The position numbers were made by a program, and so were the translations under genes. A stretch of 62,423 nucleotides of DNA from Ruania albidiflava DSM 18029. GTDB taxonomy: Bacteria; Actinomycetota; Actinomycetes; Actinomycetales; Beutenbergiaceae. The notes below the pieces were generated by a model. The model ran no database searches. It saw nothing but the letters and a program-made list of their open reading frames with translations, and was not told where the DNA came from. This document shows, in pieces, positions 748-59,744 of this stretch. The stretch spans positions 1 through 62,423 of the forward strand of contig NZ_ATWL01000016.1 in assembly GCF_000421225.1 (NCBI RefSeq). The letters are read 5' to 3'. Numbering within the stretch: the first letter of the stretch is position 1; each line of letters starts with the position of its first letter.

Positions 748-789
748 CACGTTCGGCTCCTTCGCGTACGGTGTCGCCGCCACTATCAA

Positions 790-808
790 CATGAACCGCC
801 GTTCCATG
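790..808. promoter_or_regulatory. Probable IclR operator, copy 1
   Basis: CATGAACCGCCGTTCCATG is an imperfect inverted repeat that closely resembles the perfect palindrome at 915-933 (both CATG...GCC...CCATG, 19 bp). It lies about 45-60 bp upstream of the start of the leftward secreted-protein gene, where a promoter for that gene is expected. IclR-family proteins classically bind TGGAA...TTCCA-type palindromes, so this is assigned as the operator for the divergent gene. Confidence 0.5.
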
Positions 809-914
809 TCGAGAGTTCCAGATCGTGTTACCGGATCGTTACATTCTCGGTCGATCAGGCCATTCCCGGCCTGTGGCCCGGCAGCATGCCTGCGGGGGCG
901 TGACCAAATGGAGA

Positions 915-933
915 CATGGAACGCCTTTCCATG
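915..933. promoter_or_regulatory. Probable IclR operator, copy 2 (perfect palindrome)
   Basis: CATGGAACGCCTTTCCATG has perfect 7-bp arms (CATGGAA/TTCCATG) around a 5-bp centre. It overlaps the expected -35 position of a promoter whose -10-like TACGTT (949-954) sits 7 nt before the iclR ATG at 962. That geometry suggests a leaderless transcript autorepressed by the product of the downstream gene. The TGGAA/TTCCA arms match the known style of IclR-family operators. Confidence 0.6.
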
Positions 934-961
934 TTGCCGATCCTCTGTTACGTTGCCGGAC

Positions 962-1768
962 ATGGAACAGCGTGCCACGTCGTACCACTCGCAGGGTCTG
1001 AACCGGGCTCTGGCGATCCTGCGCCTCCTGGGCAAGGCGGACACGCCGCTGACGCTGGCTGCGATCGCCTCGCAGCTCGACCTCCCCAAGTCGACTGTGG
1101 TCCGCCTCCTGCACGTGATGGAGGATGAAGGGTTCGTGCGCAAGTTCGGTGAGCACCCTGCGTACTCGATCGGGCACGCCATCCACGAGATCGCTGAGGG
1201 GTATCGCCCCCCGAGCATGGCCGAGATCACCGCGCCCGTGCTCAGCAGGCTCGCTGACGAGGTCGGATTCACAGCCAACCTCGGCGTGCTCGAAGGTCCC
1301 TCAGTCCTCCACCTGCACGTGGCCGAGCCGCAGCGCGCCCTACGGTTCGCGACGGGCGGCACGCTCGACTTCGCCTACTGCACCGGTCTGGGCAAGCTGC
1401 TCATGTCCGAGCTTGCGGAGGACGCGATCGACGCGCACCTGCCGGAGGCGGAGCCCTACCCGAGCTGGACGCCCCGCACCATCACGACCCGAGCCGGGCT
1501 CGTCGCCGAGCTCGCACGGATTCGCACGGTCGGCTACAGCATCGACGACCAGGAGCGGAACCGAGGCGTCACCTGCATGGCTGTGCTGCTGCCCACCGAC
1601 CACGCTCCTACGCTCGCGCTGTCGGTCTCCGCTCCGAGTGCTGAGCTTGAGGCACCCGCCCAGGAGGCTCTGCTGCCCGTCCTGAGAGCGGCCGCCGCCG
1701 AGCTGGTCGCTCTGCCGGGGTTCGAGACTGCGCTCGCCCCGCTGCGCACCCGGATGGTGCTCGGATGA
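962..1768 (+). CDS. IclR-family transcriptional regulator
   Basis: The 268-aa protein has the IclR layout: an N-terminal winged helix (about residues 10-75, LTLAAIASQLDLPKSTVVRL as the recognition-helix region) and a C-terminal effector-binding GAF-like domain (about 85-260) with the family's typical stretch near GLGKLLMSEL. An upstream in-frame extension to 791 exists, but the start at 962 is preferred: it gives normal family length, lies 7 nt after a -10-like TACGTT and just after the palindrome at 915-933. Its stop overlaps the next ATG (ATGA), so it heads the catabolic operon to 15523 and likely controls it and the divergent secreted protein. The effector is unknown; an intermediate of the pathway is likely. 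Confidence 0.9.
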   Translation: MEQRATSYHSQGLNRALAILRLLGKADTPLTLAAIASQLDLPKSTVVRLLHVMEDEGFVRKFGEHPAYSIGHAIHEIAEGYRPPSMAEITAPVLSRLADEVGFTANLGVLEGPSVLHLHVAEPQRALRFATGGTLDFAYCTGLGKLLMSELAEDAIDAHLPEAEPYPSWTPRTITTRAGLVAELARIRTVGYSIDDQERNRGVTCMAVLLPTDHAPTLALSVSAPSAELEAPAQEALLPVLRAAAAELVALPGFETALAPLRTRMVLG

Positions 1769-2646
1769 TCGTCGACGTCCACAGCCACTGCCACCAGCCG
1801 GAGCACTGGGGCCGCGAGCACGAAGACCACTGGCAGGACGCCTACGGTGGCGAGCCGTACCCGGTCGTCACCCCGGAGTCGTACGACCAGGTGATGCAGG
1901 AAGCAGACGTCGACGTCGCGATCGTGTTCGGCCTGGCGGCAGCGCAGGCCGGCGTGCGCACACCGAACGCATTCGTCGCCGACTTCGTCGCGCAGATGAG
2001 GACACCCGCTATCCCGTTCTGCTCGATCGATCCGCTCGAGGCCGACTGGCGCGACCAGCTCGACGAAGCGATCGAGCTCGGTTTTCAAGGCGTGAAGCTC
2101 TATCCGGTGCTCGCCCTCTTCGATCCTCTCGCTCCGGAGTTCGACGAGTTCTACACGAAGCTGACGTCGAACGGCATGGTCGCCCTCTGGCACATGGGCG
2201 CCACGCCCAGCCCGGTCGGACGCCTCGCGGTGAGCCAGCCGATGGTGATCGACGAGGTCGCTCGCCGCCATCCGGACCTGACGCAGGTGATGGCGCACAT
2301 GGGACACCCCTGGCAACGCGACACGAATGTCGTCCTCCGCAAGAACCGGCGGGTGTTCGCCGATGTCTCCGGTGTCCCGTCGCGTCCGATGGACGCGTTC
2401 TTCGCGCTCGTCGGAGCCCAGGAGTGGCGCACGGTCGACAAGCTCGTCTTCGGGTCCGACTACCCCCTGTGGACCCCCGCGCAGGCCATCGCGAACCTCC
2501 GCTCGATCGGCGAGTTCCGCGCCGGGAACCTGCCGTACGTGGCCGAGGACACGATCGATCAGATCATCCACTGCGATGCACTGACGATGCTCGAGCTCTC
2601 CCACCCGGTCGACACGCACTCATCGAAACCAAGGAGCACCACGTGA
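1765..2646 (+). CDS. Amidohydrolase-2 family metal-dependent hydrolase/decarboxylase-like
   Basis: This 293-aa protein is a TIM-barrel metal-dependent hydrolase of the amidohydrolase_2 (ACMSD/uracil-decarboxylase-related) branch. The N-terminal HSHCH motif (His6, His8) supplies the first metal ligands, GVKLYPV marks a mid-barrel strand, VMAHMGHPW carries a further histidine, and FGSDYPLW gives the strand-8 aspartate. Members hydrolyse C-N or ester bonds or decarboxylate small acids. It overlaps the IclR stop by 4 nt and the next gene's GTG, so translation is coupled. The exact substrate cannot be read from sequence; in context it should act on a product of the imported conjugate. Confidence 0.85.
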   Translation: MIVDVHSHCHQPEHWGREHEDHWQDAYGGEPYPVVTPESYDQVMQEADVDVAIVFGLAAAQAGVRTPNAFVADFVAQMRTPAIPFCSIDPLEADWRDQLDEAIELGFQGVKLYPVLALFDPLAPEFDEFYTKLTSNGMVALWHMGATPSPVGRLAVSQPMVIDEVARRHPDLTQVMAHMGHPWQRDTNVVLRKNRRVFADVSGVPSRPMDAFFALVGAQEWRTVDKLVFGSDYPLWTPAQAIANLRSIGEFRAGNLPYVAEDTIDQIIHCDALTMLELSHPVDTHSSKPRSTT

Positions 2647-3968
2647 CATCCGTCTCCCGCCGCCTCGCCAAGGAGGCAGAGCGCATCATCCCGGGCGGAG
2701 TGAACTCCGCCACGCGAAACATCGGCGCCCCCTGGGCGTGGAAGTCTGCGCGCGGTGCGACGATCACCGACCTGGACGGCGGCAGCTACACCGACTACCA
2801 CGCCGCATTCGGCGCGATCCTTCTCGGGCACTGCGATGAGCGCGTCAACGACGCGGTCACGCGCGCCATCGCCGACATCGACCTGCTGGGTGTGGGCACG
2901 ACCGAGCTCGAGGTGGAGGCGGCACAGCTGATCGTGGATGCCATCCCGAGCGCCGAGATGGTCATCTCCACGATGAGCGGCTCGGAAGCGACGTTCCAGG
3001 CGGTCCGCCTTGCTCGCGGCACGACCGGGCGCCCCTACATCCTGAAGTTCCAGGGCTGCTTCCACGGTTCCTACGACGGGCTCGCCCGCAACGTGATCTC
3101 GACGCCCGACCGTGCGTGGAAGCGCGACCCGAACTCGTCCGGCATCCTCGACGACGCTGTGGACCACACCCTCATCGCCGAGTTCAACGACCTCGCCTCG
3201 GTCGAGGAGCTGTTCGCCCTGCATCCCGAGCAGATCGCGGCCGTGATCCTCGAGCCCGTGCCGCACAACGTCGGCGCGCTGCTTCCGGAGCAGTCCTTCC
3301 TCGAGGGCCTGCGTGAGCTCACCCGCAAGCACGGCACCGTCCTCATCTTCGACGAGGTGATCACCGGCTTCCGCCACGCCCTGGGCGGCTACCAGGAGCT
3401 GTGCGGGGTCACACCGGATCTGACCACGTTCGGCAAGGCGATGGGCAACGGCTTCCCGGTCTCGGGCCTGGCCGGCAGCACCGAGGTGATGACCAACTTC
3501 ACCCCCAGCGGTGGCACCGTGATGCTGGCCGGCACCTTCAACGGCAACGCCTCCTCGATGGCCGCCGCCATCGCCACGATCAACGTGCTGAAGGACCCTG
3601 ACGTCGACTTCTACGGCCACGTCTATCGCCTGGGCGACCGTATGCGCACCGGCCTTCAGACGATCGCCGATGACCACGGCATCGCCGCACGCATCACCGG
3701 CCTCGGTTCGGTGTTCATCCCGTACTTCCTCGACGGGGAGGTACGCGGCTATCGGGACCTGCTGCGTAACAACGACAACGCCTACGCCACCTTCCACCGT
3801 CGGATGATCGACAAGGGCTCGTTCATGTACCCGATGGCACTGAAGCGGAACCACATCTCGCTCGCGCACACCGAGGAGCACATCGACACCACGCTCACCC
3901 AGGCGGAAGAGGTCCTGGGCGCGATGGCGCGCGAAGGGTTCTTCGAGACGGCTCAGGTCGGCACCTGA
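2643..3968 (+). CDS. Class III aminotransferase, glutamate-1-semialdehyde aminomutase-like
   Basis: Start GTG 2643 follows AAGGAG and overlaps the preceding stop (GTGA); the protein is 441 aa. It has the fold-type-I class III features: an SGSEAT phosphate-binding loop, FHGSYDG, the IFDEVITGFR motif (Asp237) and the PLP lysine in FGKAMGNGFPVSG (Lys265). The N-terminal IPGGVNSATR is typical of the glutamate-1-semialdehyde 2,1-aminomutase group, but a haem-biosynthesis HemL would not be expected inside a catabolic operon beside deacylases and an importer. I read it as a HemL-like paralogue moving an amino group on a pathway intermediate, perhaps a 1,2-amino shift or an omega-transamination. Confidence 0.85.
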   Translation: MTSVSRRLAKEAERIIPGGVNSATRNIGAPWAWKSARGATITDLDGGSYTDYHAAFGAILLGHCDERVNDAVTRAIADIDLLGVGTTELEVEAAQLIVDAIPSAEMVISTMSGSEATFQAVRLARGTTGRPYILKFQGCFHGSYDGLARNVISTPDRAWKRDPNSSGILDDAVDHTLIAEFNDLASVEELFALHPEQIAAVILEPVPHNVGALLPEQSFLEGLRELTRKHGTVLIFDEVITGFRHALGGYQELCGVTPDLTTFGKAMGNGFPVSGLAGSTEVMTNFTPSGGTVMLAGTFNGNASSMAAAIATINVLKDPDVDFYGHVYRLGDRMRTGLQTIADDHGIAARITGLGSVFIPYFLDGEVRGYRDLLRNNDNAYATFHRRMIDKGSFMYPMALKRNHISLAHTEEHIDTTLTQAEEVLGAMAREGFFETAQVGT

Positions 3969-3969
3969 C

Positions 3970-5529
3970 ATGTCCTCGATCTCCCAGACAGTGCTGCGCG
4001 GCGGCCTCGTCGCCGACGGGTCCGGCGGCGAGCCCTTCCGCGGCGATGTCCTGATCGCTGAGGACCGGATCGCCGCCGTCGTCCCGGCGAGCGAACGACC
4101 CGTCGCTGGGTACGACGCGGAGATCGTCGACTGCGCCGGCCGGGTCGTCGCCCCAGGCTTCGTGGACCTGCACTGCCACTCCGACCTCAGCCTGCTCGCC
4201 TATCCGGACAACGAGAGCAGGATCACCCAGGGCATCACCACGGAAGTGGTCGGCAACTGCGGTATGACGCCGGCCCCGGGCAATGCCGACGTCGCCGGCC
4301 TGGCACGGATCATCAGCACCATCGACGTCGCACCTGAGGTGGAGTGGACCTGGACCGATGTCGCCGGCTGGCTGCAGGCGCTCGACGACTGCCCCACGGC
4401 CACCAATGTTGCCGCTCAGGTCGGGCACGGCTCGGCACGGTTCGCCGTGGGCAGCACCAGCACGGTGGCACTCGACGACGGTCAGCTGGCGGCGCTCGAG
4501 CACGAGCTGGAGGAGGCATTCTCCGCCGGAGTCGTAGGTGCCAGCGTCGGCCTCATGTATGCGCCAGGCGAATCGGCCCGGGAGGAAGAGCTCGCTTCTC
4601 TCGCACGCACGGTGGCCGCTCATGACGGCGTCCTGTCGGCCCATCTGCGCGACTATCGCACGAGCGCGCTGCGGCGCTCGGTCGACGAGCTGGCTGATGT
4701 CGTGAGCGGTGACGGGCCGCGGCTGCAGATCTCCCACCTGCGCGGTGTAGGCGGAGAAGACGGCTTCACCGAGGTGCTTGCCCATGTCGAGCAGCTGAGG
4801 GAATCGAGGGACATCGCTGCGGACGCCTACCCGTACGTGCACGGGCACACCACGCTCATCCAGCTGCTGCCATCGGACCTGCGCGCCGCGGGGCCAGACG
4901 CCGTGGTCGAGGCCTGCCGGAGGGCCCCAGCGGCGATCGCCGACCACCTCGAGACCGCCGGCTACCAGCCCGGTCAGATCATCGTGATGAAGGCGGCGAG
5001 CACCCCCGACGTGGTCGGGAAGGACCTCACCGAGCTCCAGGGCGACCCCTGGCGCCTGCTCGTCGACCTGCTGGTGGCGAACCAGGCCTTGGTGGATGTC
5101 GCCGTGGAGAGCGGGCTGTGGAGCGACGTCGACCTGGCGCTCGCCACCCCCTGGGTCAGCGTCGCCTCCGACGGCACAGCGCTGAACCGAACGCATCACA
5201 GCTCCGCCGCCCACCCCCGCTCCTGGGGCGCGTTCTCCGCCGGTTACCGGCGGCTGCGCCAGCACGGTACGCCGATCGGCGAAACCGTCCGGCGTCTGTC
5301 CACCGCACCGGCCGCCCGGGCCGGAATCGCCGGCGGTATCACCCGCGGGCACCGTGCCGACCTGGTCGTCCTCGACGACCTGACGTTCGACTCCGCCGCG
5401 ACGTTCGAGCAGCCGGCGCAACCCTCCGTCGGGCTCGAGCACGTCTACGTCAACGGCTCGGCCGTCATCGGATCCGGGCACCACACCGGAGCCCGGCCAG
5501 GAAAGCTCATCAGGAAGGGTCAGCAGTGA
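3970..5529 (+). CDS. N-acyl-D-amino-acid deacylase (amidohydrolase-3 family)
   Basis: The 519-aa protein has the full D-aminoacylase architecture: a small beta-sandwich built from both termini (residues 1-60 and about 440-510) and a metal-binding TIM barrel. GFVDLHCHSD supplies His68 and His70; VGNCG supplies the metal-binding Cys97 characteristic of D-aminoacylases; the late VSVASDGT supplies the catalytic Asp. The family removes acyl groups from N-acyl-D-amino acids; some members act on other cyclic or acyl amides. It starts one nucleotide after the aminotransferase stop. Together with the downstream D-serine-dehydratase-like enzyme it is the strongest pointer to a D-amino acid in the substrate. 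Confidence 0.87.
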   Translation: MSSISQTVLRGGLVADGSGGEPFRGDVLIAEDRIAAVVPASERPVAGYDAEIVDCAGRVVAPGFVDLHCHSDLSLLAYPDNESRITQGITTEVVGNCGMTPAPGNADVAGLARIISTIDVAPEVEWTWTDVAGWLQALDDCPTATNVAAQVGHGSARFAVGSTSTVALDDGQLAALEHELEEAFSAGVVGASVGLMYAPGESAREEELASLARTVAAHDGVLSAHLRDYRTSALRRSVDELADVVSGDGPRLQISHLRGVGGEDGFTEVLAHVEQLRESRDIAADAYPYVHGHTTLIQLLPSDLRAAGPDAVVEACRRAPAAIADHLETAGYQPGQIIVMKAASTPDVVGKDLTELQGDPWRLLVDLLVANQALVDVAVESGLWSDVDLALATPWVSVASDGTALNRTHHSSAAHPRSWGAFSAGYRRLRQHGTPIGETVRRLSTAPAARAGIAGGITRGHRADLVVLDDLTFDSAATFEQPAQPSVGLEHVYVNGSAVIGSGHHTGARPGKLIRKGQQ

Positions 5530-6542
5530 CCGAACACGAATCGCCCCTCGGCGTCGGAATCGTGGGAGTCGGCGGCATCGCGCTGTCCCACATGGCTGCC
5601 TTGCGCGCCATGACGAGCGCACAGCTCGTCGCAGTGTGCGATGTGGACGCCGCCCGTGCTACCGAGGTGGCGCACCTGCAGCGATGCACCGGGTATGGCT
5701 CGCTCGAGGAGCTCCTCGCCGACGACGAGGTCGAGGCCGTGATCGTCTGCACGCCGAACATGACGCACGAGCAGCTCGGTGTCCAGGTGCTCAGGGCCGG
5801 TAAGCACCTGCTGATGGAGAAGCCACTGGCGCTGACCTCCGACGGGGCACGCACCGTCGCCGCCGAGGCGACTGCCCGCGATCTTGCCCTCGCGGTAGGC
5901 CACAGCCACCGCTTCAGCGACCAGAGCCTGGCGATCCGCGAGCTCATCGACGCTGGGGACATCGGCACGCCGCGGTTCGTCCGCATCGTGATGAACGGCG
6001 GATGGATCTGGCCTGGCTGGCAGGCATGGATGCTGAACCCCGAGCTGTCCGGCGGCCACTCGCTGCACAACGGTGTCCACCTCGTCGACCTCGCGAGCTG
6101 GTGGATGGGAGAGCCTGCGACGAGCGTCTTCTCCGTCGGACAGCACGCCACCAGCGAAGCCCTGGAGATCCACGACTACCTGGTCATGGAGCTCGGCTTC
6201 GCGAGCGGCGGGTCGGCGGTCTGCGAGATCAGTCGCGGCGAGCGGCCCCGCAGCACCGGTTACCTCGAGCTCACCGTCGTGGGTACCGACGGCATCGCAG
6301 CACGCACATGGGATGCCGAGGGCGTTCTCGCCTGGACCGACGCAGGTCTGACGGCGTGGAGCGTGACCGGTTCCGCCGACCGAACCTTCGTCCGCGAGCT
6401 CGAGGCTTTCGTCGCCGCGGCGCGCCGTGAGGCCGACGTCGTCCCGCCGCTGTCAGCAGCGATCCACGCCGTCGACATCGCCGTTGCGTCGGAGGAGTCG
6501 CTCCGCGCGGGCCGCACGATCGAGATCGGAGCACCGGCATGA
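5526..6542 (+). CDS. Gfo/Idh/MocA family NAD(P)-dependent oxidoreductase
   Basis: Start GTG 5526 overlaps the deacylase stop; the protein is 338 aa. The N-terminal Rossmann fold begins at GVGIVGVGGIALSHM, followed by VAVCDVDAARA, and carries the family lysine in the MEKPLALT motif. The C-terminal alpha/beta domain (about residues 125-330) includes GHSHRF and the substrate-binding histidine candidate in HNGVHLVDLASWW. The family oxidises or reduces hydroxyl groups, most often on sugars, inositols or amino-sugar derivatives. Its presence argues that the imported compound has a sugar or polyol-like part. It is followed with 4-nt overlap by a small protein related to its own C-terminal domain type. 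Confidence 0.9.
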   Translation: MTEHESPLGVGIVGVGGIALSHMAALRAMTSAQLVAVCDVDAARATEVAHLQRCTGYGSLEELLADDEVEAVIVCTPNMTHEQLGVQVLRAGKHLLMEKPLALTSDGARTVAAEATARDLALAVGHSHRFSDQSLAIRELIDAGDIGTPRFVRIVMNGGWIWPGWQAWMLNPELSGGHSLHNGVHLVDLASWWMGEPATSVFSVGQHATSEALEIHDYLVMELGFASGGSAVCEISRGERPRSTGYLELTVVGTDGIAARTWDAEGVLAWTDAGLTAWSVTGSADRTFVRELEAFVAAARREADVVPPLSAAIHAVDIAVASEESLRAGRTIEIGAPA

Positions 6543-7048
6543 CCGTCCCACTGACTACCCAGCCTGGTTTCACCCGCGCGCTCGCCGCGGTCCGTGGCGC
6601 AGAGATCGGACTTCTGCGTGCGGTGGCTCTGGACCTCGTCGCGGTCGGCGAGGGGGACGCGCTGCGCGAGCTCGGCCCTGAGGCGATCGAGCTCATCCGC
6701 AGCGCGACCGGTCCGGTATCGGTCGAGCTCCAGGCTCATGCGACGGCGGATGGCGCCACGACGTTCCTCGGGCGGGCCAGCCACGGGATCGCAGTGAGCG
6801 CACACCTGTCGCTCGTCGCGGGGGAACCCCGGGAGTACCTCCGAGCAACGATCCGGCTCGTGGGCACCCATGGTTCGGTGCTGGTGGACCTGCTGCGCCC
6901 GCTGCTGGACGTGCGCACGGCGGCCGGCGCGAGACAGGTGCGTTTCGGGCCGCCTGGCACGCAGATCCCGGCGGCCGACGCCGCCGACACGCTGTCTGCG
7001 ATTGCCGAGTCAGCGCGATCCGGCCGAGCGAAATCGACTACCTGGTGA
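6539..7048 (+). CDS. Small protein resembling an oxidoreductase C-terminal domain
   Basis: This 169-aa protein overlaps the preceding dehydrogenase by 4 nt (ATGA). It lacks any Rossmann motif. The middle, with SVELQAHATADGATTFLGRA and then TIRLVGTHGSVLVDLLRP, resembles the beta-sheet 'value-for-comparison plus GT.GSL.VD' stretch of the C-terminal domain of Gfo/Idh/MocA proteins. It may therefore be a separately encoded subunit that completes or modifies the active site or oligomer interface of the upstream enzyme. I do not recognise a named family; the domain resemblance is by eye only. The downstream gene begins after a clear GGAGGA site. Confidence 0.6.
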   Translation: MTVPLTTQPGFTRALAAVRGAEIGLLRAVALDLVAVGEGDALRELGPEAIELIRSATGPVSVELQAHATADGATTFLGRASHGIAVSAHLSLVAGEPREYLRATIRLVGTHGSVLVDLLRPLLDVRTAAGARQVRFGPPGTQIPAADAADTLSAIAESARSGRAKSTTW

Positions 7049-7061
7049 CGGAGGACAGAAC

Positions 7062-7907: not shown

Positions 7908-7977
7908 CGCCGCCCGGAATCGCGGTACCTGTTCACACCCATCATCCCGGTCCCCCCCTGATCACGAAGGAGTCATC

Positions 7978-9579
7978 ATGAGATCCCGTATCGCCGCAGC
8001 CGCAGTAGCGCTCGGCGCCACCACCGCCCTCCTGGCGGGCTGCACCGGCGGCAGCCCCGGCGGTGAAGGAGCAGCCGACGGCCCTAGCTCGGCCAACCTG
8101 TACCTGTACCAGGCCCCGGTCCAGTTCAATCCACTGGCGCCCGGACAGGGCGCCGAACAGCTCACGATGTCGTTGGTGTACAACGGCTTGTTCAACGTGG
8201 GCCCGGACTTCGAGCCGGTGCCGCGGCTGGCGGAGTCGTGGGACATGTCAGAGGACGCCACGACCTACACCTTCCACCTCCGGGACGGGCTCGAGTGGAG
8301 TGATGGCGAGCCGATCACGGCAGAGGACGTCGTGTTCACCTACAACCTGTTCGCCAACCCCGAGGTCGCCAGCCCCAATGCCGCGCCGTTCGCCGGCGTC
8401 GTGGGATTCCAGGACGTCCAGGACGGCGCAGCCGACACGCTCGAAGGTCTTGTGGCCGAGGACGACCAGACCGTGACGATCACGCTGACGGATCCGACCC
8501 CCGGCTTCCTCGCGCTGTTCGGCAGCGGCTACGGGATCCTCCCCGAGCACATCCTCGGAGACGTCGATCCCGGCGAGGTCATGCAGGACGAGTTCTTCGA
8601 GCGTCCCACGGTGAGCTCCGGGCCGTACGTCATGGAGGAGTTCAACGTCGACGAGAACATCGTGCTCGAGGCCAACCCGAACTACTGGTCCGAGGTGGGT
8701 ATCGACACGCTCTACCTGCAGATGGTCACCAGCGACGTCGCTACCGCCCAGCTCGCCACCGGAGAGATCGACGTCGTGCAGATCTCCCCGCAGGATCTGG
8801 AGACGGTCGAGGGACTCGACGGGGTCAATGTCAGCTCGGCACCGTCGCCAGGGTTCCTGAGGCTGCTCGTGAACTTCACGAAGTTCGAGGACGAGCGGAT
8901 CCGGCAGGGATTCCTCCAGGCGATCGATCGCCAGGGCATCATCGATGGGATCCTCGGCGGCCACGGTGAGGTCATCAACAGCACGATCATGACCCCCTGG
9001 GCACTCCCCGACGACCTTGAGCCCTACGAGTACAACCCCGACGAGGCGCAGGCCCTTCTCGAGGAAGCCGGTTATGACTTCTCCGAGGAGCTCCGGGTGA
9101 GCTGGATCCCAGGTACCGCCGACCGGGACGCGGCCGTGCAGATCGTGCTCGAGAACTTGAAGGCGATCGGCATCAACGCCGTCGCCGACCAGATCGAGAG
9201 CGCGAACCAGCTGGGCATGATCGAGAACGCGGAGTACGACCTGATGATCTCGGGTGGTGGAAACTACACTCCGGATCCGACGGTCTCGGCCAACGCTCTC
9301 CTCTGTGACAGCGTCTTCCCGGCCGGCGGGAACACGTCCCTGTTCTGCAACGAGGATCTCGACCAGCTGCTGGACGAGGGAGCCGTGACGGCCGACGAGG
9401 ACGAGCGCGCACAGATCTATCAGGATGCCGCTCGGCTGGACAACCAGCTGGTGCCGTACCTGTGGCTCTATGTCCCGGACACGCTCTGGGCCACGAGCGA
9501 CCGCATCGAGGGCTTCGAGCCGCACGGTGACTTCGCCAACGGGTTCTGGAACGCTGCCGACTGGACCGTCACGGACTGA
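7978..9579 (+). CDS. ABC transporter substrate-binding lipoprotein, peptide/SBP_5 family
   Basis: The 533-aa protein has a lipoprotein signal (LLAGC, lipidated Cys22) after a short positively charged N-terminus, then the class C SBP_5 fold: PVPRLAESWDMSED, YTFHLRDGLEWSDG and the ITAEDVVFTYN element are family hallmarks. SBP_5 proteins bind di- and oligopeptides, nickel chelates, or glycosides and opine-like amino-acid conjugates. AAGGAG precedes the ATG by 5 nt, and a 70-nt gap from the FAH gene may hold an internal promoter or a processing site giving extra SBP expression. It is followed by matching permease and ATPase genes. Confidence 0.93.
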   Translation: MRSRIAAAAVALGATTALLAGCTGGSPGGEGAADGPSSANLYLYQAPVQFNPLAPGQGAEQLTMSLVYNGLFNVGPDFEPVPRLAESWDMSEDATTYTFHLRDGLEWSDGEPITAEDVVFTYNLFANPEVASPNAAPFAGVVGFQDVQDGAADTLEGLVAEDDQTVTITLTDPTPGFLALFGSGYGILPEHILGDVDPGEVMQDEFFERPTVSSGPYVMEEFNVDENIVLEANPNYWSEVGIDTLYLQMVTSDVATAQLATGEIDVVQISPQDLETVEGLDGVNVSSAPSPGFLRLLVNFTKFEDERIRQGFLQAIDRQGIIDGILGGHGEVINSTIMTPWALPDDLEPYEYNPDEAQALLEEAGYDFSEELRVSWIPGTADRDAAVQIVLENLKAIGINAVADQIESANQLGMIENAEYDLMISGGGNYTPDPTVSANALLCDSVFPAGGNTSLFCNEDLDQLLDEGAVTADEDERAQIYQDAARLDNQLVPYLWLYVPDTLWATSDRIEGFEPHGDFANGFWNAADWTVTD

Positions 9580-9583
9580 TTGC

Positions 9584-10543
9584 ATGCTGAGATCTCTCCT
9601 CCCACGCCTCCTCTCCAGCGTGGCCGTCTTCCTGCTGATCGCCATCGGACTGTTCACCCTGGTCCGGCTGGCCCCCGGCGACCCCATCGACATGATGGTG
9701 CCGCCCGAGCTGGCGGGCGCCCCACGAGACGCCTACATCGCATCGGTCCGCGAGCGGTTCGGTCTCGACCAGCCGATCGTGGTGCAGTTCTGGCGGTGGC
9801 TCGGCGGGCTGATGACCGGAGATCTCGGCTTCTCCTACACCACGGGCCGGCCGGTCGGCGAGCTGCTCGCCGGCCGGCTGGGTCCGACGGCGCTGCTGAT
9901 GGGCAGCGCACTCTTCATCGGGCTGGTCATCGCCGTACCGGCAGGGGTGATCGCGGCCGTGCGACGGAACACCATCGCCGACTACACGATCAGCTCCGTG
10001 AGTGTGCTGGCCATCGCCGTTCCGAGCTTCTTCCTCGGCATGCTCGCCATCTACACGTTCGCGGTGAAGCTGCAGGTGCTCCCCTCCTCGGGGATGCACA
10101 GCACGGGTCGGGACGATCTCGGTGACCTGTTGCTGCACATGATCATGCCGGTCGGTCTGCTCGCCCTGGCCAATGCGGCAAACTTCATCCGCTATGTCCG
10201 CAGCGGCGTGCTCGAGGAGCTCGAGAAGGACTATGTCCGCACGATCATCGCCAAGGGTGGAACGCGGACGAGGGCGTTGCGGCATGCGTTGCGGAACAGC
10301 CTCATGTCACTGATCACGGTGCTGGCGATGACGATCCCGATCGCGCTCTCCGGCGCGGTCGTGCTGGAACAGATCTTCTCCTGGCCCGGTATGGGTCAGC
10401 TCGCGATCGACGCTCTCGGGAACCGCGACTACCCGGTCCTGATCGGTTTCGGGCTCTACATCGCCGTGCTCGTGCTGATCTGCAACCTGATCGCTGACCT
10501 GTCCTACACGATCATCGACCCGAGGGTGAGGACTGCACGATGA
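9584..10543 (+). CDS. ABC transporter permease, DppB type
   Basis: Start ATG 9584 lies 5 nt after the SBP stop and gives a 319-aa membrane protein. The first helix (LLSSVAVFLLIAIGLFTLVRLAPGD) with the conserved LVRLAPGDP just after it is the DppB/OppB signature; five further hydrophobic segments follow. The cytoplasmic coupling (EAA) loop reads RTIIAKGGTRTRALRHALRN. It forms a heterodimeric pore with the next gene product and is predicted to sit in the cytoplasmic membrane. Its stop overlaps the next ATG. Confidence 0.92.
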   Translation: MLRSLLPRLLSSVAVFLLIAIGLFTLVRLAPGDPIDMMVPPELAGAPRDAYIASVRERFGLDQPIVVQFWRWLGGLMTGDLGFSYTTGRPVGELLAGRLGPTALLMGSALFIGLVIAVPAGVIAAVRRNTIADYTISSVSVLAIAVPSFFLGMLAIYTFAVKLQVLPSSGMHSTGRDDLGDLLLHMIMPVGLLALANAANFIRYVRSGVLEELEKDYVRTIIAKGGTRTRALRHALRNSLMSLITVLAMTIPIALSGAVVLEQIFSWPGMGQLAIDALGNRDYPVLIGFGLYIAVLVLICNLIADLSYTIIDPRVRTAR

Positions 10544-11445
10544 CAGACCACGGTCACTCTCCCGCGTCGACCGTCGACGTGGCACCGACCTCGCAGGAGT
10601 CGTCGCCGGACAAGCTCGCGTGGCGCCGGTTCCTGAAGAATCCGGTCGCGGTGATCGGCGTGCTCGCTCTGCTGATCACGGTGCTTGCCAGTGTGCTCGC
10701 GCCGGTGATCAGCCCCTACCCGCCGAACGCCATCGACCTCGGGAACGTCCGTCAGCCTCCGTCCGCCGACCATCTGCTCGGCACCGACTCCACCGGCCGC
10801 GACGTTTTCAGCCGTCTGCTCGCAGGCGGACAGATCTCGCTCATGGTGGGGTTCCTGGCCGCCCTGATGGCCGTGGCGATCGGCACGCTGGCCGGTGTCG
10901 TGGCGGGGTGGTTCGGCGGAATCGTGGACGGGATCATCAGCCGCATCATCGACATCATGCTCTCGGTGCCGGCGGTCCTGGTGATCATCGTTCTGGCCGG
11001 CGTGATAGGCCCGAGCGTGCCGATGCTCGTCGTGGTCATCGCGGGTCTCGCGTGGCCGACGCCGGCGCGTATCGCCCGGGGCGTGGTCCTGAGCCTGCGC
11101 GAGGAGGAGTTCGTCCAGGCCGCCCGCGCCCTCGGCTCCCGGACAGGATTCATCATCTTCCGGCACCTCGTGCCGGGCGTGCTGCCTCCGATCGTGGTCT
11201 CGGCGACCCTCCTCGTGGCCGAGGCGGTCCTGCTGGAGTCATCGCTGTCGTTCCTCGGTGCCGGTGTCCAGCCGCCGGAGTCCAGCTGGGGAAACATGCT
11301 CAACGAGGCACAGTCCCTCACCGTCCTCTCGTCCATGCCATGGCTGTGGGTGCCCGCCGGTCTCATGATCGCCGTCACTGTCCTGTCGGCGATGGCGGTC
11401 GGAGACGGTGTCCGTGACGCCATCGACCCCCGGAAGAACAACTGA
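10540..11445 (+). CDS. ABC transporter permease, DppC type
   Basis: The 301-aa protein begins with a cytoplasmic tail containing WRRFLKNPVAVIGV, typical of the DppC/OppC N-terminal domain, then HLLGTDSTGRDVFSRLLAGG, the best-known family signature. The coupling loop is EEEFVQAARALGSRTGFIIF followed by RHLVPGVLPP. Five to six membrane helices are evident. It overlaps the DppB-type gene by 4 nt and is followed at once by the fused ATPase gene, so the importer is complete in the order SBP, DppB, DppC, DppDF. Confidence 0.92.
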   Translation: MTDHGHSPASTVDVAPTSQESSPDKLAWRRFLKNPVAVIGVLALLITVLASVLAPVISPYPPNAIDLGNVRQPPSADHLLGTDSTGRDVFSRLLAGGQISLMVGFLAALMAVAIGTLAGVVAGWFGGIVDGIISRIIDIMLSVPAVLVIIVLAGVIGPSVPMLVVVIAGLAWPTPARIARGVVLSLREEEFVQAARALGSRTGFIIFRHLVPGVLPPIVVSATLLVAEAVLLESSLSFLGAGVQPPESSWGNMLNEAQSLTVLSSMPWLWVPAGLMIAVTVLSAMAVGDGVRDAIDPRKNN

Positions 11446-11446
11446 C

Positions 11447-13111
11447 ATGACGAAGCAGACAGCACCGACGCCGCCGCTGGCCGTGCATGACCTCACGCTC
11501 GACATCTCCACCCCCCAGGGCAAGGTGCGCATCCTCGAGGACGTGGCGTTCGAGGTTCGGCCCGGCGAGATCGTCGGCATCGTCGGGGAGTCCGGATCGG
11601 GCAAGAGCATGACTGCGCTCAGCGTGCTGCGGATCCTGCCCGCGGGCGCCCGCATCGTCGGCGGGCGCATCGAGTTCGAGGGCGTCGACCTCGCCACCCT
11701 CAGCTCGGGCCGGATGCGCAGGATCCGAGGGCGCCGCATCGCGATGGTCTTCCAGGACCACATGACGACCCTCGACCCGGTGATCTCCATCGGCGCGCAG
11801 ATCGAGGAGGCGTATCGGATCCACCATCCGCGGGTCCCCCGCGCGAAGGCTCGCGAGAAGATGGTCGAGACCCTGGAGCTGGTCGGCGTGCCCGATGCGG
11901 CGGACCGGTCCAAGCAGTACCCGCACCAGTGGTCCGGCGGGATGCGCCAGCGAGCGGTGATCGCGATGGCACTCATCAACGATCCGGACCTCATCATCGC
12001 CGACGAGCCGACCACGGCGCTCGACGTCACGATCCAGGCGGAGATCCTCGCCGTCCTCCGCGAGCTCCGCGATCGACGAAGCCTCGCGATCATGCTGATC
12101 ACGCACGACATGGGCGTGATCGCCGACATGGCCGATCGCATCGTGGTGATGAAGGAGGGGAAGGTGGTGGAGATGGCCGAGGCACACGCGCTGTTCTCCT
12201 CTCCTGAGCATCCCTACACACGCAAGCTGCTCGACGCCGTACCCCAGCCGTCGGACGCGACGCCGGAGCGCGGTCGGGTAGAGGAAGCAGAACCTGCTGC
12301 CCTTCAGGTGAGCGACCTCGTGGTGGAGTACCACCGTTCGTGGCGCAGGCAGGGCGTGCGTGCCGTCGACGGCGTCAGCTTCTCGGTACCTGCAGGCCAG
12401 GTGCTCGGCCTGGTCGGCGAGTCCGGATCTGGCAAGTCCACGATCGGCAAGGCGATCGTGGGGCTGGCTCCGATCACGGCCGGGAGCATCCGGGTCGGGG
12501 ACGTCGAGCTGAAGGCGCTGCGGGGTGGGCAGGCGCGTGCGGCGCGCGAGAGGTTCGGCATGGTCTTCCAGGATCCGGCATCATCGCTGAATCCGCGGAT
12601 GACGATCGGCGAGTGCATCGCCGAACCGCTCGTGGCGCACCGCCGCACGATGTCTCGTACCGCTCGTCACGCACGGGTGGTCGAGCTGCTCGAGCAGGTG
12701 CAGCTGCCGGCCGCATGGACGACGCGATTCCCGCACGAGCTCTCCGGAGGACAGCGGCAGCGCGTCGGCATCGCACGCGCCCTGGCTCTGGATCCCGAGC
12801 TGCTCATCGCCGACGAGCCGACCTCGGCGCTCGATGTCTCGGTCCAGGCCGCCGTGCTCGAGGTGTTCCAAGATCTGCAGCAGCGTCTCGGGTTCTCGTG
12901 CCTGTTCATCAGCCACGACCTCGCAGTCGTCGAGCTGCTGTCGGAGAACGTCGTCGTCCTGCAGCAGGGACAGATCGTCGAGGAAGGCAATGCGCGGTCG
13001 GTGCTCAACGACCCGCAGACCGAGTACGCACGCCGGCTCGTCGACGCTGCCCCGTTCCCCGACCCCGCCCGTCAGCGGGCTCGCCATGTCACACGGATCA
13101 CCAACGTCTAG
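11447..13111 (+). CDS. Fused dipeptide-type ABC transporter ATPase (DppD-DppF)
   Basis: The 554-aa protein carries two complete ABC cassettes. Cassette 1 (about residues 10-270) has Walker A GESGSGKSM, Q-loop VFQDHMTTLDP, signature WSGGMRQRA and Walker B LIIADEPTTALD. Cassette 2 (about 290-545) has Walker A GESGSGKST, VFQDPASSLNPR, LSGGQRQRVGIARAL and LLIADEPTSALD. Both have the oligopeptide-type C-terminal extension (HPYTRKLLDAVP, EYARRLVDAAPFPD). Start ATG 11447 lies one nucleotide after the DppC stop; an upstream in-frame extension inside dppC is rejected. DppD/DppF fusions are known in actinobacteria and proteobacteria, so both ATP sites are expected to function. Confidence 0.94.
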   Translation: MTKQTAPTPPLAVHDLTLDISTPQGKVRILEDVAFEVRPGEIVGIVGESGSGKSMTALSVLRILPAGARIVGGRIEFEGVDLATLSSGRMRRIRGRRIAMVFQDHMTTLDPVISIGAQIEEAYRIHHPRVPRAKAREKMVETLELVGVPDAADRSKQYPHQWSGGMRQRAVIAMALINDPDLIIADEPTTALDVTIQAEILAVLRELRDRRSLAIMLITHDMGVIADMADRIVVMKEGKVVEMAEAHALFSSPEHPYTRKLLDAVPQPSDATPERGRVEEAEPAALQVSDLVVEYHRSWRRQGVRAVDGVSFSVPAGQVLGLVGESGSGKSTIGKAIVGLAPITAGSIRVGDVELKALRGGQARAARERFGMVFQDPASSLNPRMTIGECIAEPLVAHRRTMSRTARHARVVELLEQVQLPAAWTTRFPHELSGGQRQRVGIARALALDPELLIADEPTSALDVSVQAAVLEVFQDLQQRLGFSCLFISHDLAVVELLSENVVVLQQGQIVEEGNARSVLNDPQTEYARRLVDAAPFPDPARQRARHVTRITNV

Positions 13112-13142
13112 TGCAGTCCCAGTCCGACACAGGAGAACATCC

Positions 13143-13994
13143 ATGCGCATCATGACCGTCTACGCCCACCCCGCCGACACGATCACCAACTGCGGCGGCA
13201 CGTTGGCGTTGCACGCCGACGCCGGTGACGAGATCGTCGCGGTGATCCTCACCCACGGCGGTCGCATCCACCCGAATGTGTATGCCGAGGAGGCGCGCAA
13301 GGAGAACGCCGACCCCAGGCTCACCGCTGCCGGCCGGGCGGAGATCATCGAGAACAAGAAGGGTGAGCTGCGCCGCGCGGCCGACATCATCGGCATCGGC
13401 ACCATCGAGTTCCTCGACCACGACGACCTGATGAGCACCGTCCAGGAAGACCTGGTGGACCAGGTCGCCGAGCTGATCGCCGAACACCGGCCCGACGTCG
13501 TCATCGCCGACTACCCGCAGAACCCCGCCGTGACAAACTCCACCCACACCATCGCGACGATGGTGCTGATCGCCGCCATGGACAGGGCGGCCTCGTTCCT
13601 GAAGAACCTGGACGGCAAGGAGGAGGTCAACATCAAGCAGGTGTTCCTCGGTGGCCTTCCGGTGCTCGCCAGTGACGCACTGTCCACCTACGGCGTCCGC
13701 AACGACCTCCTCATCGACATCACCTCGGTCGTCGGTCGGAAGGTGGCGGCGATGGACTGCTTCACCAGCCAGGGCTACGACGGCCCGTTCGCCCGCAAGC
13801 TCATCGAAGCGAGCAACGGCGAGTTCGGACGTTCTGCGGGTGTAGCACTCGCCGAACCCTATGTCCGGTTCCGCAGCGAGACGAGGGCGCTGCTGCCGTT
13901 GACGGAGTATGCGGAGGCGGCCGACCCGCTCACCCGCCACGTGTCGTACTCCCAGTTCGACGTGCGACGCGAGTTCCCGCTCACCCAGGGATGA
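13143..13994 (+). CDS. PIG-L-like deacetylase-fold protein with altered active-site motif
   Basis: Start ATG 13143 follows AGGAGA; the product is 283 aa. It has the PIG-L/MshB fold markers: an N-terminal YAHPADTITNCGGTLALHA and a mid-protein PDVVIADYP segment followed by His135 where the third zinc ligand is expected. The canonical motif is AHPDDE. Here His9 and Asp12 (zinc ligands) are kept, but the catalytic-base Asp is Ala11 and the following Glu is Thr13. Classical N-acetylglucosaminide deacetylase chemistry is therefore doubtful, although the metal site may remain. It could be a lyase or hydrolase variant or a binding protein. It follows the importer by 31 nt within the operon. Confidence 0.8.
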   Translation: MRIMTVYAHPADTITNCGGTLALHADAGDEIVAVILTHGGRIHPNVYAEEARKENADPRLTAAGRAEIIENKKGELRRAADIIGIGTIEFLDHDDLMSTVQEDLVDQVAELIAEHRPDVVIADYPQNPAVTNSTHTIATMVLIAAMDRAASFLKNLDGKEEVNIKQVFLGGLPVLASDALSTYGVRNDLLIDITSVVGRKVAAMDCFTSQGYDGPFARKLIEASNGEFGRSAGVALAEPYVRFRSETRALLPLTEYAEAADPLTRHVSYSQFDVRREFPLTQG

Positions 13995-14020
13995 ATCCGC
14001 CCACCAGACTTGGAGACCCT

Positions 14021-15133
14021 GTGACTGTGACCAACCTGCCCGCCCTCATCGGCCGCTCGATCGAGGAGCTCCCCACTCCCGCGGTGCTGATCGACCTCCC
14101 GACGTTGCATCGCAACATCACGCAGATGGCAGAGGCTGCCCGCGGTTTCGGTGTCGCCCTGCGCCCGCACTGGAAGACGAGCAAGTGCGCTGAGGTCGCT
14201 CGTCGGCAGCTCGAGGCGGGCGCCACCGGGCTGTCCGCAGCGACGGCTGCCGAGGTCGATGCGCTCTCCGCGGCCGGGTTCACGGAAATCTTCTGGGCGT
14301 ATCCGCCGGTGGGCTCCCACCGGATCGAGACAGCCCTGCGCGCTGCGCGGCGCGCACGCGTGATCGTCGGAGTCGACTCGCTCGCATCGGCCGAACCGCT
14401 TGCCGAGGCCGCCGACGCCGAGGAGGTCGAGATCGAGGTCCGTCTCGAGGTCGACTCCGGGCTGGGGCGCACAGGGGTCGACCCTGATGACGCGCGAGGC
14501 GTCGCACGAGGCCTCGCGCACCTGCCCGGGCTCGTGCTGGAGGGCGTCTTCACCCACGAGGGCCAGGTCCAGGGGGTAGGCGCTGACCCCGAGCGGCGCA
14601 CCGAGGTCGGGACGGCAGCGGGTCAGCTGCTCGTGCAGGTGGCCGAGGCGCTGCGGGCGGACGGGCACCAGGTCCCGAGCGTCTCGGTCGGCTCGACCGC
14701 CGGCGCCCGTTCGGCCCCTCGGGTCCCGGGGGTCACCGAGGCTCGGCCGGGAACCTACGTCTACGGCGACGAGAACCAGGTCGCGATCGGCACGATCGAC
14801 CCGAGCGATGCCGCGATGAGCGTACTCAGCCGCGTGATCAGCACCCAGCGCGGTGATCCGGTGCTGGTCGACGCCGGGATCAAGGCGATGAGCTCGGACG
14901 GGTCCCTGCACGGTGATGGCCGGATCGGCACTGTGGTCTCCGGCAGCGGGGGCGTGCTGGCGAGCGGGTATGAAGAGCACGGCGTCCTCCGCGGCTCGTC
15001 GGCTCTGCAGGTCGGTGACCTGATCCGGATCCGCCCCAACCACGCCTGTGGGCTGACCAACATGCATTCGCACGTCTTCGCCGTCGAGGACGGCGTCGTC
15101 GTCGACATCTGGTCCGTTCTGGGCCGCCACTAG
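14021..15133 (+). CDS. PLP enzyme of the D-serine dehydratase / D-threonine aldolase type
   Basis: GTG 14021 has GGAG 5 nt upstream and gives 370 aa; an ATG at 13991, overlapping the previous stop, is an alternative with no good ribosome site. The fold-type-III alanine-racemase-like barrel starts at LPTPAVLIDLPTLHRNI, with the PLP lysine in LRPHWKTSKC and GLSAATAAEVDAL following. The C-terminal PNHACGLTN has a His-x-Cys pair like the zinc ligands of eukaryote-type D-serine dehydratases. The reaction would be metal-assisted dehydration or retro-aldol cleavage of a 3-hydroxy-D-amino acid. Dehydration gives an enamine, which explains the RidA gene immediately downstream. Confidence 0.85.
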   Translation: MTVTNLPALIGRSIEELPTPAVLIDLPTLHRNITQMAEAARGFGVALRPHWKTSKCAEVARRQLEAGATGLSAATAAEVDALSAAGFTEIFWAYPPVGSHRIETALRAARRARVIVGVDSLASAEPLAEAADAEEVEIEVRLEVDSGLGRTGVDPDDARGVARGLAHLPGLVLEGVFTHEGQVQGVGADPERRTEVGTAAGQLLVQVAEALRADGHQVPSVSVGSTAGARSAPRVPGVTEARPGTYVYGDENQVAIGTIDPSDAAMSVLSRVISTQRGDPVLVDAGIKAMSSDGSLHGDGRIGTVVSGSGGVLASGYEEHGVLRGSSALQVGDLIRIRPNHACGLTNMHSHVFAVEDGVVVDIWSVLGRH

Positions 15134-15145
15134 AAAGGAACGACA

Positions 15146-15523
15146 GTGCAGCAGATCTCCACACCCTCGGCCCCGGAGCCGGCCGGCACCTACTCCTCCG
15201 GAATCGTCAGCGGCGGTTTCCTGTTCATCGCAGGCCAAGGGCCGTTCACCCCCGAGGGCACCCTGGTCGGTGAGACGTTCGCCGACCAGGTCCGGCAGAC
15301 GTTCGCGAACCTCGAGGCCGTCGCGGTGGCGGCGGGCACGTCGATGGACAACGCGGTCCGCATCGGGGTCTACCTCAACGACCTCGCCGACTGGGCCGAG
15401 TTCAACGAGGTCTCGAAGGAGCTCCTGAGCACGCCCTACCCGGCGCGCACGTCGATCCAGGCCGACCTGAACGGCTTCCTCGTCGAGGTCGATGCGATCG
15501 TCGCCCTTCCGGCGGACGAGTGA
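15146..15523 (+). CDS. RidA family enamine/imine deaminase
   Basis: Start GTG 15146 follows AAAGGAA by 5 nt; the protein is 125 aa, standard for RidA/YjgF. The catalytic arginine is Arg101 in YPARTSIQ and the acidic partner is Glu114 in FLVEVDAI; ISGQGP-like turn appears as IAGQGPF. Trimeric RidA hydrolyses 2-aminoacrylate and similar enamines released by PLP enzymes, yielding keto acids and ammonia. Its place as last gene of the operon, directly after a D-serine-dehydratase-like enzyme, supports formation of a reactive enamine in this pathway. Confidence 0.93.
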   Translation: MQQISTPSAPEPAGTYSSGIVSGGFLFIAGQGPFTPEGTLVGETFADQVRQTFANLEAVAVAAGTSMDNAVRIGVYLNDLADWAEFNEVSKELLSTPYPARTSIQADLNGFLVEVDAIVALPADE

Positions 15524-15642
15524 GGCAGATGGCGTGAACGGCACAGGGGCGCAGTGCGGCGAGCACCCCTGGCACTTCACCGATCCGCGGCGTACCGTCG
15601 AAGCAGACGCGCACCACCCCCGCGCACGCGAGGAGAGCTGAG

Positions 15643-55737: not shown

Positions 55738-55750
55738 CGGAATATCCGGG

Positions 55751-55794: not shown

Positions 55795-55875
55795 TCGAAG
55801 CGGACTAGTTCGTGACTGGGGACCACCAAGTAACACCCACTGATTCAAAGGGGAAGAGCCCCTTAAGGAGCACTA

Positions 55876-57036: not shown

Positions 57037-57062
57037 GCCTTTCCTCAAAATAGGAGAAACAA

Positions 57063-59743: not shown

Positions 59744-59744
59744 G

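Follow-up and report, generated by a model that had tools for sequence, protein, structure and literature searches.

The window studied here is a stretch of 62,423 nucleotides (positions 1 to 62,423 of contig NZ_ATWL01000016.1, Ruania albidiflava DSM 18029), of which positions 962-15523 hold 14 neighbouring genes on the + strand, from an IclR-family regulator (962-1768) through to a RidA-family protein (15146-15523). Judged from sequence and by analogy, this operon could be a mobile catabolic kit by which an N-acylated 2-amino-2-deoxy sugar, or the corresponding aldonic acid, is broken down oxidatively, a reading to which we give a probability of roughly 0.45. The operon as such is real, conserved, mobile and catabolic, and uncharacterised as far as our literature searches show.

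An amino sugar or amino-sugar acid as the substrate is suggested, with moderate confidence and by analogy, because a published gene triad and the surroundings of several distant counterparts agree on it. The triad belongs to the ong cluster (OngB, OngC, OngD, with KdgK) of Pseudoalteromonas prydzensis ACAM 620, which is reported to serve the catabolism of 2-acetamido-2-deoxygluconate (GlcNAc1A), and deletion of each triad gene is reported to have abolished growth on that compound (PMC9537276). The counterparts are those of the genome G501, of Tsukamurella and of haloarchaeal plasmids, all described below. With moderate confidence, the operon can be regarded as a variant of the breakdown of amino-sugar acids by a deacylase, a dehydratase dependent on pyridoxal 5'-phosphate (PLP) and RidA, carrying extra enzymes that are left unexplained.

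Organization and conservation of the operon

Ten of the 14 proteins were scanned with Pfam and NCBIfam profiles, and the four importer genes were named from sequence and from relatives. The genes are, in order:

962-1768, + strand: IclR-family regulator (PF01614 95.7 bits, PF09339 60.1 bits)
1765-2646, + strand: amidohydrolase-2 protein, AH2 (PF04909 97.8 bits)
2643-3968, + strand: HemL-like class-III PLP enzyme, aminotransferase or aminomutase (PF00202 213.5 bits)
3970-5529, + strand: D-aminoacylase-like N-deacylase, DAD (relatives in the PDB, kept metal and catalytic residues)
5526-6542, + strand: Gfo/Idh/MocA dehydrogenase (PF01408 101.1 bits, PF22725 78 bits)
6539-7048, + strand: ORF6, shortened second protein of Gfo/Idh/MocA type (alignment with longer relatives)
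7062-7907, + strand: FAH-fold hydrolase (PF01557 228.7 bits)
7978-9579, + strand: substrate-binding lipoprotein of a peptide-type (Opp/Dpp) ABC importer (sequence; match in ten of ten relatives)
9584-10543, + strand: ABC permease 1 (open reading frame and match in relatives)
10540-11445, + strand: ABC permease 2 (open reading frame and match in relatives)
11447-13111, + strand: fused double ABC ATPase (open reading frame; two separate genes in more distant relatives)
13152-13994, + strand: PIG-L-family protein of GalB type (PF02585 66.7 bits)
13991-15133, + strand: D-serine-dehydratase-like (DSD-like) fold-III PLP enzyme (PF01168 108.2 bits, PF14031 63.3 bits)
15146-15523, + strand: RidA-family protein (PF01042 94.7 bits)

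An earlier sequence-only reading of this DNA had named most of these families, and all that it named were found where it had placed them on the + strand; its gene list was right as far as it went but lacked AH2 and ORF6. Its picture of contiguous genes on one strand also holds, but "mostly overlapping" was slightly strong, as the chosen start codons give 4-base overlaps at six of the 13 junctions, and neighbouring genes lie up to 70 bases apart. Since the IclR gene overlaps the following AH2 gene by 4 bases, the operon transcript probably begins with it, and the operon would be under the control of the IclR protein. None of the eight NCBIfam models listed for this protein reached its cut-off; BhcR came highest, with 144 of 350 bits. 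A consensus scan of positions 1-16500 returned no promoter-like or terminator-like sites, a result that is uninformative either way on transcript units.

The DSD-like protein, used as query on genome contigs, led to 11 loci (L003-L013) in Ruania, Agrococcus, Brachybacterium, Microbacterium, Pseudolysinimonas, Leucobacter, a Streptosporangiaceae genome and others. Longer stretches were taken for ten of the 11, and counts out of ten relatives refer to these. AH2, HemL, DAD, MocA, ORF6, FAH, the importer genes, DSD and RidA, that is 12 of the 14 operon genes, had matches in all ten, so that the grouping of the genes is more than chance; co-occurrence in relatives, which the sequence-only reading had proposed as a check on itself, is thereby confirmed. 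A relative of the IclR gene (54-93% identity) was present in nine of the ten and the PIG-L gene in seven, five times at its operon position and twice nearby, and whole-genome searches at E <= 1e-20 did not find the PIG-L gene in four of the 12 operon genomes. The eleventh locus, L011, lies on a 6.8-kb contig and matched five of the 14 operon genes. One relative of lower G+C content (G402), most of whose genes had been missed by the gene caller, was judged by tblastn. The operon is rare, with DSD at E <= 1e-60 in two of the 396 genomes of the order, its own genome counted, and the set is kept across several families of actinobacteria.

RpoB served as the yardstick of vertical descent (rpoB was not found in G398). 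Between the window host and the genomes G397, G399 and G406, RpoB is 72%, 71% and 74% identical, whereas AH2, HemL, FAH, permease 1 and the ATPase are 81-91% identical; the other enzymes compared gave 77-80% (DAD), 82-85% (MocA), 75-83% (DSD), 89-94% (PIG-L) and 63-75% (ORF6). Because operon proteins are better conserved than RpoB between these distant hosts, the sequences point to horizontal passage of the operon among the four. Against the more distant G400, four operon proteins gave 70-79%, about the same as RpoB (74%), and against G285, of the same genus, RpoB gave 95% and five operon proteins 90-97%.

Two side observations concern individual copies. In Pseudolysinimonas kribbensis (L027/L008) the deacylase, MocA and substrate-binding genes are split into several frames and DSD, RidA and the permeases are open, which reflects either decay or sequencing errors. 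A DUF4862 (PF16154) gene directly follows RidA in L008 (11514) and L010 (11567) and DSD in L011 (6146), and a gene annotated as DUF4862 lies about 6 kb from a triad in Azospirillum (L047, 17556); this protein is a candidate for a further step of the pathway.

Deacylase, DSD-like enzyme and RidA

The gene set, its conservation, the kept metal and catalytic residues and the subfamily placement of the enzymes are read directly from the sequences. The relatives of DAD in the PDB are D-aminoacylase (1m7j), N-acyl-D-glutamate deacylase (3gip) and PpOngB (9kb1). An alignment of nine operon rows (the window and eight relatives, leaving out the frame-broken G401, G402, whose gene had escaped the gene caller, and G404, whose contig was too short) keeps the metal ligands (HxH, Cys97 and two His), the catalytic Asp and the substrate-binding Tyr and Arg in all nine, and the metal-binding Cys noted earlier is exactly residue 97. 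In OngB, Lys254 and Ser291 are described as strictly conserved and as binding the alpha-carboxylate, and Ser292 and Gln298 as specificity residues (PMC12017989). OngB positions were read through two gammaproteobacterial proteins from unannotated stretches, called OngB-like from their context; on this basis the two alpha-carboxylate contacts are changed, Lys to Arg and Ser to His, in nine of nine operon rows. The D-aminoacylases AfDam and BbDam and the GlcNAc1A deacetylase PpOngB (PMC12017989) share with DAD the family, metal ligands, Cys, catalytic Asp and Arg, and DAD differs from them in these two replacements and in lacking OngB's Ser292 and Gln298. The operon rows come out as a single clade (100/100) in the tree, and the deacylases of a second genus are next to it (93/89).

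The closest solved protein to the DSD-like enzyme is D-threo-3-hydroxyaspartate dehydratase (3wqc, 39% in the alignment), and identity to the zinc-dependent D-serine dehydratase 3anu is 32%. With both it shares the PLP barrel, the C-terminal domain (PF01168 with PF14031) and the His-x-Cys pair, and it is their neighbour in the tree (96/96, with long branches flagged); it differs in forming a clade of its own and in the stretches GVxxHEGxVQG and YVxGDENQ, which those two lack. The zinc pair, correctly picked out in the sequence-only reading, takes the form His-Ala-Cys (HAC) in all 12 operon rows. The metal site is described as His-x-Cys in the dehydratases and as His-x-Asp in D-threonine aldolase (PMC4401734). 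D-threonine aldolase and BhcC were considered as identities for the enzyme and ruled out, given HAC in place of His-x-Asp and a score of 148.7 of 690 bits for NF045642. By Fischer projection, the C2/C3 arrangement of the (2R,3R) isomer of 3-hydroxyaspartate is shared by D-glucosaminate and D-galactosaminate but not by D-mannosaminate. That isomer is the reported substrate of D-threo-3-hydroxyaspartate dehydratase (PMC8071972), and this shared arrangement together with the His-x-Cys pair is why the DSD-like enzyme could act as a dehydratase on hexosaminates. The RidA protein passed PF01042 and stayed under the cut-off of TIGR00004 (97.2 of 106.25 bits); it is predicted to be an enamine/imine deaminase.

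The additional enzymes

AH2 keeps His6, His8, His143, His178 and Asp232 in ten of ten aligned operon proteins. The best match of its AlphaFold model (pLDDT 76.9) is a probable 2-pyrone-4,6-dicarboxylate hydrolase (4i6k, E 2.5e-10), which would be a lactonase, and ACMSD-type decarboxylases come next, so that a lactonase or related hydrolase is only a guess. The HemL-like protein passed NF000818 of the glutamate-1-semialdehyde aminomutase subfamily (401.4 of 398 bits) and failed TIGR00713, the hemL equivalog for glutamate-1-semialdehyde aminomutase (389 of 527.3 bits). The NCBIfam model nearest to MocA is inositol 2-dehydrogenase (141.7 of 355 bits).

ORF6 had no Pfam or NCBIfam match, and was aligned with four longer relatives (289-319 residues), the alignment showing a DKP motif. 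For one of these a Gfo/Idh/MocA fold is predicted (pLDDT 75.2, Foldseek E 1.7e-18), and scyllo-inositol dehydrogenase is among the fold relatives of this MocA partner. In the window and five relatives the nucleotide-binding half is missing, and it is at least partly present in the four longer forms; the remaining half is still kept by purifying selection, as dN/dS against three relatives is 0.26-0.31. Behind MocA the second genus described below also has a longer partner gene, with a full Rossmann match in L084 (PF01408, 66.7 bits) and a shorter form in L081. ORF6 is a stand-alone C-terminal Gfo/Idh/MocA half, possibly acting as a non-catalytic partner subunit of the adjoining MocA.

The solved protein nearest to the FAH-fold enzyme is 1gtt, the isomerase/decarboxylase of 4-hydroxyphenylacetate degradation; its relatives include L-2,4-diketo-3-deoxyrhamnonate hydrolase (8gsr), although the model for that hydrolase (NF053535) scored 185.1 of 500 bits, far under its cut-off. 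The PIG-L assignment made earlier holds for the family (PF02585) but not in its usual sense. All eight operon-family rows have AHPAD, GalB types have AH[AS]AD (AHSAD in GalB), and the best PDB match is 4-oxalmesaconate hydratase GalB (5cgz, E 4.2e-9). Because Ala replaces the catalytic Asp of AHPDD, as in GalB, the protein is probably an accessory hydratase or dehydratase, and the AHPAD motif ruled out a sugar or peptide deacetylase. It differs from GalB in length (280 versus 240 residues), similarity to it is weak and gallate genes are not nearby; galC and galD types, which a galB neighbourhood elsewhere does have, were absent from the operon enzymes scanned. The PIG-L genes of two haloarchaeal loci carry the deacetylase-type AHPDD and were rejected as counterparts.

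Distant counterparts and a second clade

Among 396 sampled genomes of the phylum, the deacylase is best matched, own genome aside, in G501, where DAD (33%), DSD (40%) and RidA (48%) have SIS, Amidohydro_1, sugar-MFS and ROK genes no more than 7 kb away; in G783 a short contig had room for DAD and DSD alone. A single stretch of Tsukamurella carries genes for RidA, IclR, a sugar kinase, an OngC-type enzyme, a D-aminoacylase, a KDPG-aldolase-type protein and a gluconate symporter. This stretch (T. tyrosinosolvens L053, 5383-12656) looks like a compact ong-type pathway, and at the place of the GNCG metal motif its deacylase reads GQDG. In three haloarchaeal plasmid loci (L046, L055, L064), genes for D-aminoacylase, FAH and a PLP enzyme are contiguous, with GH20 and heparinase or sulfatase genes alongside; these are likely to be archaeal loci for the utilization of amino-sugar polysaccharides. 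The PLP enzyme there is a homologue of glucosaminate-6-phosphate ammonia-lyase. Natrinema gelatinilyticum has DAD, DSD, FAH and MocA with a sugar ABC importer, and Haladaptatus has DAD and DSD with one, so that the differing PLP enzymes of the haloarchaeal loci look like non-homologous replacement at one step.

Two Azospirillum species combine IclR, an Opp importer, D-aminoacylase, RidA and DSD, and permease 1 of the window is 36-37% identical to permeases adjoining D-aminoacylase genes in Azospirillum and Haloprofundus. The plasmid neighbourhoods of D-aminoacylase genes considered here are 13 annotated ones chosen from 88 plasmid records matched. Plasmid neighbourhoods of HemL (Shinella and two haloarchaea) and of AH2 (Chelatococcus) gave no usable context. 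Taken together, by analogy, the context elsewhere favours sugars.

A second group of clusters was reached through HemL, which at E <= 1e-150 was found in 12 of the 394 genomes of the class, its own and 11 of one other genus (about 60% identity); all 11 also have DAD at E <= 1e-40. Six clusters were read, from five of these genomes, and every one contains HemL, MocA, a second MocA-type gene, FAH, DAD (36-38%) and AH2 (52-57%), no enzyme being better conserved between the two clades than HemL (59-61%). Five of the six have the importer and IclR and are without DSD; the sixth (G840) combines a DSD of 53% with an enolase-superfamily gene, its stretch containing no importer. RidA had no match in any of the six stretches (RidA elsewhere in those genomes was not searched for), and eight of the 11 genomes lack a DSD relative genome-wide at E <= 1e-30. 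These absences argue against an obligatory DSD step, and the weight may shift from DSD to the HemL-like enzyme, which would be more central than the sequence-only reading held. That reading is upheld in its dedicated catabolic operon, and the same absences count against its order of steps. Genes around the second-genus clusters include BNR-repeat, F5/8-type C, melibiase, enolase-superfamily, DHDPS, 2-hydroxyacid dehydrogenase and further amidohydrolase-2 genes, and CBM_4_9 was over its cut-off in one of three proteins nearby.

Proposed route and its rivals

The substrates and the order of steps given here are drawn by analogy. The peptide-type ABC importer would bring in the N-acylated compound, which MocA, with its shortened partner ORF6, would oxidize to a lactone that AH2 could open. 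DAD would then deacylate the D-configured amino group of this acid, and the DSD-like zinc/PLP enzyme would eliminate water across C2-C3 of the freed 2-amino-2-deoxyaldonate. RidA would hydrolyse the resulting enamine or imine to a 2-keto-3-deoxyaldonate and ammonia, and after further oxidation a 2,4-diketo acid might be split by the FAH-fold enzyme, yielding pyruvate and a short hydroxy acid. An amino group could be moved or removed by the HemL-like enzyme, at a step that we do not place, and the GalB-like protein would be an accessory hydratase. The deacylation of a D-configured N-acyl compound followed by fold-III PLP deamination with RidA, as first put forward from the sequence, is supported by analogy to the ong triad. 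The conjugate with a separate sugar-like part, proposed along with it, can be dispensed with, since a 2-amino-2-deoxyaldonate already is a 3-hydroxy-D-amino acid.

A number of observations weigh against an amino-sugar substrate, or against this order of steps. The importer is of the peptide type. At the positions of Ser292 and Gln298 of OngB, DAD has Thr and Leu in nine of nine operon rows, and the OngB-like proteins group with AfDam (100/99), apart from the operon deacylases; the DSD-like enzyme is 20-25% identical to two OngC-like proteins, which form a separate branch (100/100). The account of the ong cluster gives the role of the RidA protein OngD as unknown, and reports that OngC yielded 2-keto-3-deoxygluconate (KDG) and ammonia in vitro without OngD (PMC9537276). 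No KDG kinase (KdgK) occurs among the ten operon proteins scanned, the other four being importer parts. Lytic polysaccharide monooxygenase (LPMO, PF03067) was matched in none of the 12 operon genomes (the control matched in one of 14), and NagB was over its cut-off in nine of the 12, with a weaker match in the other three. In G501, an SDR gene and an unknown gene on the opposite strand separate the triad from the sugar genes; in the Azospirillum loci the triad is not flanked by sugar enzymes, and these loci would also fit a plain N-acyl-3-hydroxy-D-amino acid; and six of the 13 D-aminoacylase neighbourhoods are without adjoining DSD or sugar-acid genes, so that the family as such does not imply sugars. 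The missing DSD and RidA genes of the second genus belong on the same side.

Part of this concerns the choice of amino sugar. Given NagB in the operon genomes, ordinary N-acetylglucosamine (GlcNAc) needs no such operon, and since LPMO had no match in the 12 genomes either, neither home-made GlcNAc1A nor GlcNAc is likely to be the substrate. Membership of the ong system, with chitin-derived GlcNAc1A as substrate, was rejected on the results for OngB, OngC, KdgK and LPMO.

Somewhat improbable is a form of the amino-sugar route in which the operon would be a phosphorylation-free counterpart of the diketo-hydrolase route for L-rhamnose and L-fucose, an enzyme like glutamate-1-semialdehyde aminomutase acting on amino-sugar chains and supplying the 2,4-diketo acid for FAH. 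An open-chain 2-amino-2-deoxyaldose is an alpha-amino aldehyde, as glutamate-1-semialdehyde is; alternatively, a 4-amino group would be exchanged for a keto group. On this view a diamino sugar, or another rare N-acylated amino sugar found on bacterial surfaces, could be the substrate.

The absence of DSD and RidA from most second-genus material has led us to weigh a core of HemL, MocA, the second MocA, FAH, DAD and AH2, through which an amino sugar or aminocyclitol would be oxidized, deacylated and deaminated by HemL, DSD and RidA being a side activity for some substrates. We think this unlikely, though the six second-genus stretches keep that core, five with IclR and importer, HemL is the enzyme best conserved between the clades, and scyllo-inositol dehydrogenase is among the fold relatives of the MocA partner. 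DSD and RidA match in all ten relatives of the window operon, in the other genus a second copy of the core comes with a DSD of 53%, and neither a non-homologous dehydratase in those genomes nor RidA outside the stretches was searched for.

About equally doubtful is the import of an N-acyl or peptidyl 3-hydroxy-D-amino acid, such as a derivative of D-threo-3-hydroxyaspartate, to be deacylated, dehydrated and converted with RidA to oxaloacetate, FAH being a tautomerase or decarboxylase. Here the nearest solved relative of DSD would be a direct guide to its substrate, the peptide-like importer would fit, Azospirillum has importer and triad only, and the Arg and His that replace Lys and Ser in the DAD pocket could hold a second carboxylate. 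However, MocA, ORF6, AH2, HemL and the GalB-like protein would be left without a task, the first four of them matching in ten of ten relatives, and sugar genes surround distant counterparts.

Ring cleavage of an aromatic or pyrone-type compound, of the kind seen when gallate or protocatechuate is degraded, by an operon with amino-acid enzymes present by chance is very improbable: the GalB motif, the AH2 fold nearest to 2-pyrone-4,6-dicarboxylate hydrolase and the relation of FAH to the aromatic-pathway enzyme 1gtt are set against the lack of a dioxygenase, galC or galD type among the scanned enzymes and of the GalB-like gene in three of ten relatives. Breakdown of muropeptides or of N-acyl-D-amino acids of the cell wall, to which the growth tests of the sequence-only reading pointed, is just as hard to credit, as the ten proteins scanned include no peptidase or N-acetylmuramic acid etherase family and the sugar-acid type enzymes stay unexplained, even if the deacylase family acts on N-acyl-D-amino acids and the importer is of the peptide type.

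If the amino-sugar reading is true, such breakdown would not be confined to marine chitin degraders and would have arisen from different subfamilies in actinobacteria, alphaproteobacteria and haloarchaea, and the larger kit in the operon could end in pyruvate without a kinase. It would also suggest functions for proteins with misleading family names, namely HemL, PIG-L deacetylase, D-aminoacylase, alanine-racemase-like and amidohydrolase.

Other features of the window

Positions 54151-62228 hold genes for malate synthase, a CoA transferase, two FAD-binding proteins and one iron-sulfur protein, read as a glycolate-oxidase-like set, and an enoyl-CoA hydratase-type gene. From about 56 kb the G+C content is 0.57-0.58, versus 0.65-0.76 elsewhere in the window, and the region has possibly been acquired, in view of this drop. 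At 43086-46619, on the - strand, lies a fused hydantoinase A and B (oxoprolinase-like) gene, which had no match at E <= 1e-30 in four of six operon relatives searched and was for that reason unusable as a yardstick of vertical descent, so that rpoB was used instead.

Comparison with known systems

The statement of the sequence-only reading that no described pathway has this exact set of genes holds for the whole set in the literature searched, but not for the core triad, which the ong cluster contains; no other described cluster with the triad was found in the open-licence literature searched. The operon and ong both unite a deacylase of the D-aminoacylase family, a PLP deaminase and a RidA-family protein in a regulated cluster that has uptake genes of its own. 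The deacylase and PLP enzyme are of other subfamilies, IclR stands where ong has MurR/RpiR, and an ABC importer where ong has a sodium symporter. The operon adds MocA, ORF6, AH2, HemL-like, FAH and GalB-like genes to the ong set.

A partial glucosaminate route proposed for haloarchaea is described with other enzymes (PMC12343721). The glucosaminate-6-phosphate ammonia-lyase of the haloarchaeal loci is SelA-like and not of the family of the window DSD, and none occurs among the operon genes scanned. The non-phosphorylative route for L-rhamnose and L-fucose ends in L-2,4-diketo-3-deoxyrhamnonate hydrolase (8gsr). With that route the operon shares a dehydrogenase, a possible lactonase, a dehydratase and an FAH-fold gene in one operon, and it differs in the added enzymes of amino-sugar type and in an FAH protein that stays under the cut-off of that hydrolase family.

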